Source of the DNA: Chondrocystis sp. NIES-4102
Lineage (GTDB): Bacteria; Cyanobacteriota; Cyanobacteriia; Cyanobacteriales; Xenococcaceae
Length of the DNA: 64,000 nucleotides
Reading direction: 5' to 3'
Assembly (NCBI GenBank): GCA_002368355.1
Contig: AP018281.1
Location: forward strand, 3,596,001-3,660,000
A program made the translations under genes and the position numbers. The notes beneath the pieces are model-generated. The model ran no database searches and was not told the origin of the DNA. It was given only the letters and a program-made list of their open reading frames with translations. Within the stretch, counting starts at the first letter, position 1. Each line of letters begins with the position of its first letter. Positions 56,739-57,758 of this stretch are shown here, piece after piece.

Positions 56739-57012
56739 AGTTATGTTACTCCAAAAGTAAAAAATAATAAGCGATCGCGCAAGATATTAAATTAGATACC
56801 ACTTGGATAAAATGGCTGTTTGGGGGATTGTTAAGTTTTATCTTAATTATTTTGAGTGTGATTATGACGCTGCTGTTCAAACTTATTAGCTAATCTACGT
56901 AGTGTTATATTTTATAGCTTTTGTTAAAACTCCTAATTTAAAAAATCCTATTGAGTCTCTAACATTAAGATAGATTTGATATAATAAATCCTCTTAAACA
57001 TTAACAGATAGT

Positions 57013-57027
57013 GAGGAGCAAGCCATT
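57013..57027 (+). promoter_or_regulatory. Shine-Dalgarno directly upstream of the ATT start of recR
   Basis: GAGGAG at 57013-57018, then six bases (CAAGCC), then ATT at 57025. The spacing is ideal and no ATG, GTG or TTG lies between the upstream in-frame stop (56995) and this ATT. Confidence 0.7.
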
Positions 57028-57618
57028 TATACGCCTCCTTTAGCCCGTTTAATCGAGCAATTACAGCTTTTACCAGGAGTTGGGCCAAAAACAGCCCAAA
57101 GACTAGCACTACACATAATTAAACGCCCAGAAAAAGATGTTAAAGCCTTAGCAGAAGCCTTAATTGCAGCCAAACAAAAAGTAGGGCTTTGTAAAGTTTG
57201 CTTTCATCTTTCCGCCGAGCCTGTATGTTCCATTTGCAGTAATCAAAATCGCGATCGCTCTACAGTTTGTGTGGTGGCTGATTCTCGCGATATTATTGCT
57301 TTGGAAAAAACTAGAGAATACGGTGGTTTATATCACGCCTTGGGTGGAGTGATTTCGCCAATGGATGGTATTGGGCCAGAACAGCTTAATATTGAATCTT
57401 TAGTCCGTAGAGTGACTAAAAACGACATTCAAGAGATTATTTTGGCAATTAACCCCAGTGTCGAAGGGGAAACCACCACCCTATATATTAATGGTTTATT
57501 AAAACCTTTTACTAAAGTCACTAGAATTGCCTTCGGTTTACCTATGGGCGGAGATTTAGAATATGCCGACGAAGTTACCCTTGCTAGGGCGTTAGAAGGT
57601 AGAAGGGAATTGGATTGA
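57025..57618 (+). CDS. recR: Recombination mediator RecR, apparently with an ATT (AUU) start codon
   Basis: A 197-residue RecR that acts with RecFO in loading RecA. The helix-hairpin-helix region [22 protein letters not shown], a zinc finger [16 protein letters not shown] and a Toprim domain ([34 protein letters not shown]) are intact. Homologues begin [12 protein letters not shown]; here the codon in the Met position is ATT, with a strong ribosome-binding site six bases away. No ATG, GTG or TTG is found in frame between the upstream stop at 56995 and codon 83 (GTG 57271), which would cut off the N-terminal domain. So an AUU start is the best reading; a base error is the alternative. Confidence 0.85.

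Positions 57619-57758
<140 letters not shown>

Follow-up and report, generated by a model that had tools for sequence, protein, structure and literature searches.

Probable near-cognate start codons of recR in Cyanobacteriia and a possible trade of start codon against Shine-Dalgarno strength

The recR locus of Chondrocystis sp. NIES-4102

The window, that is, the whole stretch of DNA analysed here, comprises 64,000 nt of the Chondrocystis sp. NIES-4102 genome (GenBank AP018281.1, positions 3,596,001 to 3,660,000 of the forward strand), and all coordinates below count from its first nucleotide. It carries a recR gene with the following features:

56980..56985, plus strand: TATAAT, a possible -10 element, seen in 10 of 23 family loci including the window
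56995..56997, plus strand: in-frame stop codon TAA closing the recR frame upstream (sequence)
57013..57018, plus strand: Shine-Dalgarno (SD) site GAGGAG, 6-nt spacer to ATT, duplex energy -7.8 kcal/mol with CCUCCUUU
57025..57027, plus strand: ATT (AUU), putative start codon of recR (sequence; 10 readable same-genus relatives; onset of coding selection)
57025..57618, plus strand: recR, 197 codons plus stop (TIGR00615, 267 bits; Pfam RecR_HhH, RecR_ZnF, Toprim_4 and RecR_C)

By profile match the gene product is RecR: it belongs to the TIGR00615 equivalog (267 bits against a cut-off of 162.6), residue 2 of the protein aligns with profile position 3, and the helix-hairpin-helix, zinc-finger, Toprim and C-terminal domains are all present according to Pfam and TIGR00615. 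The start region reads TAA ACA TTA ACA GAT AGT GAG GAG CAA GCC ATT TAT ACG CCT CCT. The ATT stands in frame with RecR where Met is expected, and none of the nine recR-frame codons between the TAA and the ATT is ATG, GTG or TTG. The preliminary description had reported the same ATT, TAA and lack of a canonical codon (ATG, GTG or TTG) between them, which a second reading of the sequence finds exact; the GAGGAG six bases 5' of the ATT, which it took for a good ribosome-binding site, is confirmed as well. Inside the gene, the earliest canonical codon is GTG at 57271 (codon 83), and a start at this GTG would cost RecR its helix-hairpin-helix and zinc-finger parts.

If used, the TATAAT at 56980 to 56985 would place the mRNA 5' end at about 56992 and leave a leader of about 33 nt; a consensus promoter scan of the window does not have this TATAAT among its listed elements. 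Since a TATAAT lies 41 to 50 nt upstream of the recR start in the 10 family loci mentioned above, recR leaders are probably short, with little room for another start. The leader region 56740-57200 gave no Rfam match at gathering score. Directly 3' of the gene there are five tandem TCAGGAG units (57637-57671).

Start codons of recR among relatives

Relatives were collected by similarity to an ATT-type RecR, and the fractions of weak starts given below are not population frequencies. The first search found a RecR match in 54 of 60 genomes, and 29 loci were taken besides that of the window. Twelve same-genus relatives gave 10 readable starts, one C-terminal piece only and one genome without a match. 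A wider set consisted of named loci, the best 80 of 481 confirmed. Searches at the level of the order (243 genomes, 230 matches) and of the phylum (146 genomes, 144 matches) each contributed part of their matches to the locus set, and the picocyanobacterial family (61 genomes, 52 matches) contributed 30 loci. The start could be read in 353 of 355 loci (L195 and L275 were left out). Over 90 nt, 259 loci are distinct: 208 from Cyanobacteriia other than picocyanobacteria (non-pico loci below), 31 from picocyanobacteria and 20 from sister classes.

The same recR codon is ATT in 10 of 10 readable same-genus relatives and also in many other families, which makes a sequencing or assembly error at 57025 so improbable as to be negligible. 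Within the family of the window, the codon is ATT in 22 of 23 distinct loci and ATA in the other; in one same-genus relative, L021, an in-frame GTG lies five codons before the ATT. The preliminary description had named a different conserved start in relatives as the result that would speak against it, and the close relatives hold ATT at the same codon. Judging from these sequences, the ATT of the window is neither an error nor private to one genome.

Among the 208 non-pico loci of this similarity-based sample, 173 have no ATG, GTG or TTG in recR codons -4 to +1, and in 130 such a codon is absent from the entire frame up to the preceding stop. For 43 of these 173 loci, either a canonical codon is found farther upstream in frame, as in Crocosphaera loci with TTG at -5 within TTGGAG, or the available DNA does not reach a stop closing the frame. 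By codon type, the 208 loci comprise 77 with ACG, 68 with ATT, 3 with ATA, 25 with GTT or GTC without a preceding ACG, 1 with ACA-AAT and 34 with a canonical start (29 ATG, 3 TTG and 2 GTG). A nearby canonical start is lacking in 30 of 31 picocyanobacterial loci, where codon -2 is CTG in 30 and TTG in one. By hand count, weak-start recR occurs in 32 of 35 sampled Cyanobacteriia families; families f37, f39 and f40 show canonical starts only, but each of them is represented by one locus. In the sister classes, the start is canonical in 20 of 20 loci and weak in none. The preliminary description considered an AUU-started recombination gene unusual. The observation itself is real; it is not peculiar to this genome, however, as the lack of AUG is class-wide and the codon drifts (ATT, ATA, ACG, GTT, CTG). 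By sequence, recR has both marks by which a near-cognate-start gene may be recognized, namely no canonical codon at the start and a weak codon kept among relatives.

Four sets of observations bear on whether the weak codon is the start. First, the position of the stop closing the frame wanders among relatives, and in some it is one codon before the ATT: TGA GCC ATT in L004, TAA ACC ATT in L005 and L114, and TAG CTT ATT in L129. The stop is likewise one codon before the ACG in L225 (TAG ACA ACG), and in picocyanobacteria L300 and L310 the CTG is the second codon after the stop. Second, synonymous and non-synonymous differences among the 71 ATT/ATA loci number 673 and 6263 in codons -3 to -1 and 5801 and 652 in codons 2 to 6, a switch indicating that coding selection begins at about the inferred recR start. 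The same switch is found at the inferred starts of the ACG and CTG sets. Third, codon 1 of the 71 ATT/ATA loci is ATT in 68, ATA in 3 and ATC in none, versus ATC 41, ATT 23 and ATA 4 at Ile codon 10 in 68 of the same recR loci (Fisher p = 2e-17, ignoring kinship). Therefore, codon 1 does not behave like an ordinary Ile codon.

Fourth, the spacing of the SD to the common residue is mostly 7-8 in the ATT set (32/62), 6 in the GTT set (16/21) and 9-10 in the ACG set (59/77), in which the ACG lies one codon earlier and thus at 6-7. Among loci with GTN at +1, ACG comes just before it in 57 of 61 with a spacing of 9-11 and in 0 of 21 with a spacing of 6-7 (p = 7e-16); the four others with a spacing of 9-11 have ACA, ACC or ACT in its place, and all 15 further GTN-at-+1 loci, with other SD spacings, have ACG. 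This tie between SD spacing and the presence of ACG suggests that the SD is displaced by roughly one codon along with the inferred start. When the ACG and GTT classes are pooled, the +1 codon is GTT in 93 of 96 loci. Because GTT is nearly invariant there, and might itself be the start even after an ACG, ACG as the start of the ACG class is likely but not certain. From all these sequence patterns, we infer that the weak codons AUU/AUA, ACG, GUU and CUG are used as recR starts.

There is only a very small chance that the real start lies elsewhere, either upstream and out of frame with a frameshift or at a downstream TTG, ATG or GTG. Downstream in-frame canonical codons do exist in the weak-start set, at codon 16 in the median and at codon 6 at the earliest. 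However, purifying selection on codons 2-11 is strong, the TIGR00615 match runs from residue 2 (the first downstream candidate in the window being codon 83), and a shared out-of-frame start was not seen by eye in the leaders of close relatives.

Some further features of individual recR genes may be recorded here. Picocyanobacterial recR leaders (L287-L316) often share TAGATT or TAAATT, possibly a -10 element, about 28 nt before the CTG, and the CTG overlaps a TGA (CTGA). In two picocyanobacteria (G375:C24:54484-55122 and G392:C21:22769-23437), RecR is matched as two neighbouring pieces of the same open-frame length, which suggests that these recR genes contain an additional, stop-free stretch. 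The RecR match in a Trichodesmium MAG (L069:1501-2312) covers 812 bases for 197 residues, and about 220 bases seem to sit inside this recR.

Shine-Dalgarno strength and start codon

SD strength was taken as the duplex energy of the leader with CCUCCUUU, the presumed anti-SD at the 16S 3' end of this genome; the threshold was set at -4.5 kcal/mol. The 16S 3' end TCACCTCCTTT, sought in the genome itself, has a single match there, outside any 16S gene by Rfam. L201, with a TTG abutting the SD, was grouped with the GTT type, which gives 174 weak-start non-pico loci for the comparisons.

An SD of -4.5 kcal/mol or better is present in 163 of the 174 weak-start loci, in contrast to 1 of 34 canonical recRs. 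The sole canonical one has a TTG start, and the ATG-started recRs reach the threshold in 0 of 29 cases. Control starts do so in 2 of 59 cases (22 ybaB, 19 recF and 18 recO), and the long ATG open reading frames of the window in 1 of 44. The median SD energy is +0.3 kcal/mol for canonical recRs, -6.4 for ATT/ATA, -7.4 for ACG and -9.8 for GTT (rank tests of SD energies, p = 1e-5 to 1e-26, ignoring kinship). Start codons decrease in strength in the order AUG > AUU > ACG > GUU, and on these leader sequences the median SD energies follow this order.

Two RecR trees, of 146 and 189 rows, provide only 1 and 4 supported independent pairs, and kinship was therefore taken into account by family. In 7 of 7 families holding both types of recR, the mean SD is weaker for the canonical genes (sign test by hand on few families, p = 0.016; 6/6, p = 0.031 without the picocyanobacterial family). 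The weak RecR tree has 13 changes of start type, but its well-supported branches yield no more than 4 pairs. Of these, none contradicts the trade-off, and 2.4, 3.0 and 3.9 go for it at three SD thresholds (median p of 0.5, 0.25 and 0.125, respectively). The trade-off is not universal, since the SD falls short of -4.5 kcal/mol in 11 of the weak-start loci, all of ATT type (L015, +1.9), and picocyanobacterial recR is mostly without a good SD (median -3.3).

These observations may be explained as follows. The AUU at 57025 would be read by the initiator fMet-tRNA, positioned by the SD GAGGAG, at low efficiency; in general, a strong SD would allow initiation at near-cognate or poor recR codons. Where AUG has been regained, the SD would be gone, so that the combined strength of recR initiation would stay low. 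In our opinion, recR of Cyanobacteriia has quite probably been under long-lasting selection for weak initiation, with the start codon traded against the SD. The quantity under selection would be the amount of RecR, and the sequences suggest very long-standing selection for low RecR production. Neutral drift, in which little RecR is needed and weak starts are merely tolerated, seems improbable to us. Drift could account for the high variability of the codon (ATT, ATA, ACG, GTT, CTG), but not easily for a strong SD being maintained alongside weak codons and missing from ATG-started recRs, for the lack of ATC at codon 1, or for the lack of any ATG with an SD of -4.5 or better, though ATG is one mutation away from ATT, ATA and ACG.

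Overproduced RecF is toxic to E. coli, whereas excess RecR or RecO is not, and co-expression of RecOR relieves the toxicity of RecF, according to the accessible part of one report (PMC10287930). As RecR is not toxic in excess in that species, these results supply no reason for keeping it low.

Short tandem repeats (cccgatt, caactgt, cttcctt and aactaac) are found just 5' of the start in L044, L046, L047 and L194, whose recR starts with ATG or TTG. These repeats give the impression that an insertion of repeat units took the place of the leader together with its SD. We also considered, and rejected, a hairpin sequestering the SD, as the GAGGAG of the window can pair with bases of codons 4-6. Six leaders fold no better than shuffled ones (z = -0.18 to -1.23), and in 122 genes the average pairing of the SD with early codons does not exceed that for synonymous codons within the same gene: mean z is +0.12 in 60 ATT/ATA, +0.08 in 49 ACG and +0.48 in 13 GTT genes, and -0.54 in a subset of 10 ATT genes.

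Neighbouring genes, IF3 and known weak starts

The control genes recF, recO and ybaB mostly have canonical starts. In recF, 19 of the 20 genomes have one at the expected position. For recO, 19 of 20 genomes have a canonical codon no more than 8 codons ahead of the match; in the last one the match starts within the gene, and the frame upstream contains no canonical codon. ybaB starts with ATG in 26 of 26 Cyanobacteriia. recR is found within 400 nt downstream of ybaB in 0 of 26 Cyanobacteriia versus 2 of 2 sister-class genomes tested, and by eye a YbaB-like C-terminus lies just upstream of recR in 17 of 20 sister-class loci. Taken with the start counts, this indicates that the loss of AUG from recR coincides with the loss of the ybaB-recR arrangement. 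The ancestral state was presumably ybaB-recR with a canonical start. recR would have moved away from its position downstream of ybaB to become a separate gene, and its AUG would have been replaced by AUU/AUA, ACG, GUU or CUG.

Picocyanobacterial recF differs from the other recF genes. Of its 31 loci (L335, L367-L396), 29 were parsed, with ATT in 23, ATC in 5 and ATG in 1, and 26 parsed loci have no canonical codon there or at the three codons before. The matching codon is ATG or GTG in the other 19 cyanobacteria. As for infC, the gene of IF3 (L146, L397-L425), 22 of 30 given loci were parsed and 12 of them, including that of the window's own genome, read ACG CCT GTG, with ATG CCT GTG at the matching position in L401, L411 and L414; the GTG two codons after the ACG leaves the infC start ambiguous. 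In L406, infC has no ATG, GTG or TTG in frame before its conserved part. These data touch on a further explanation, which we regard as possible although rather unlikely: a near-cognate start would put recR among the genes that IF3 discriminates against, such as infC and pcnB in E. coli, so that RecR would follow the state of IF3 or of the ribosome. The weak start that the IF3 gene itself may have, and the ATT/ATC of picocyanobacterial recF, are consistent with such sensing. On the other hand, infC and recR types are unmatched across lineages (recR ACG with infC ATG in G082 and G037; recR CTG with infC ATG in the picocyanobacterium G328), the infC start is ambiguous as described, and the recRs that regained ATG are without SD, which points to the level of initiation rather than to a codon-specific sensor.

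Bacterial starts outside ATG, GTG and TTG are usually taken as oddities of one or two genes. In E. coli, infC has a near-cognate AUU start limiting its translation. The AUU start of E. coli pcnB is said to have been described by Binns and Masters in 2002 as limiting translation too. The comparison with infC and pcnB made in the preliminary description is right as to the near-cognate AUU; in cyanobacteria, however, a recombination gene and most of a class are concerned, and the codon drifts among AUU, ACG, GUU and CUG. In Staphylococcus aureus, cvfC1, ccpN and infC have experimentally mapped AUU or AUA starts with an extended SD, the non-canonical codon lowers output relative to AUG, and codon and SD of cvfC1 are conserved among staphylococci, as stated in the available sections of that study (PMC13009471). 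So far as those sections go, recR shares with these genes the non-canonical start with an extended SD, but its starts are deduced from sequence, and it differs in its occurrence in 32 of 35 families and in the repeated swap between a weak codon with SD and AUG without SD. Non-ATG starts, with GTG named, of lacI and other sugar regulators of Enterobacteriaceae have been presented, in the accessible text of another article (PMC11445065), as an evolved dial for protein amount; the likeness to recR would be in the start codon as a dosage dial, but the recR codons lie outside ATG, GTG and TTG. Our literature search, covering few subscription papers, found no published account of recR start codons, and the available part of a reannotation of Synechocystis starts (PMC13339759) mentions neither recR nor infC. 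A weak near-cognate start with a strong SD would be of a known kind, and what stands out is its spread, a codon drift that takes in ACG and GUU, and the recurrent swap of this combination with an AUG lacking an SD.

A broader proposal may be put forward tentatively, at somewhat less than even chances. recR would have used a class-wide device of weak start and strong SD since the breakup of ybaB-recR, with ACG or GUU as sole natural starts; together with the AUU/AUC of picocyanobacterial recF, this would amount to dosage control of the RecF pathway at initiation, possibly read by IF3. If the weak starts are true, gene callers limited to ATG, GTG and TTG would misplace the recR start in many cyanobacteria and the recF start in picocyanobacteria. 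A recR without AUG in most of a class, whose codon drifts with SD strength following, would be a natural experiment showing how codon and SD together make up initiation strength, and selection on how much of a recombination mediator is made would become directly testable.
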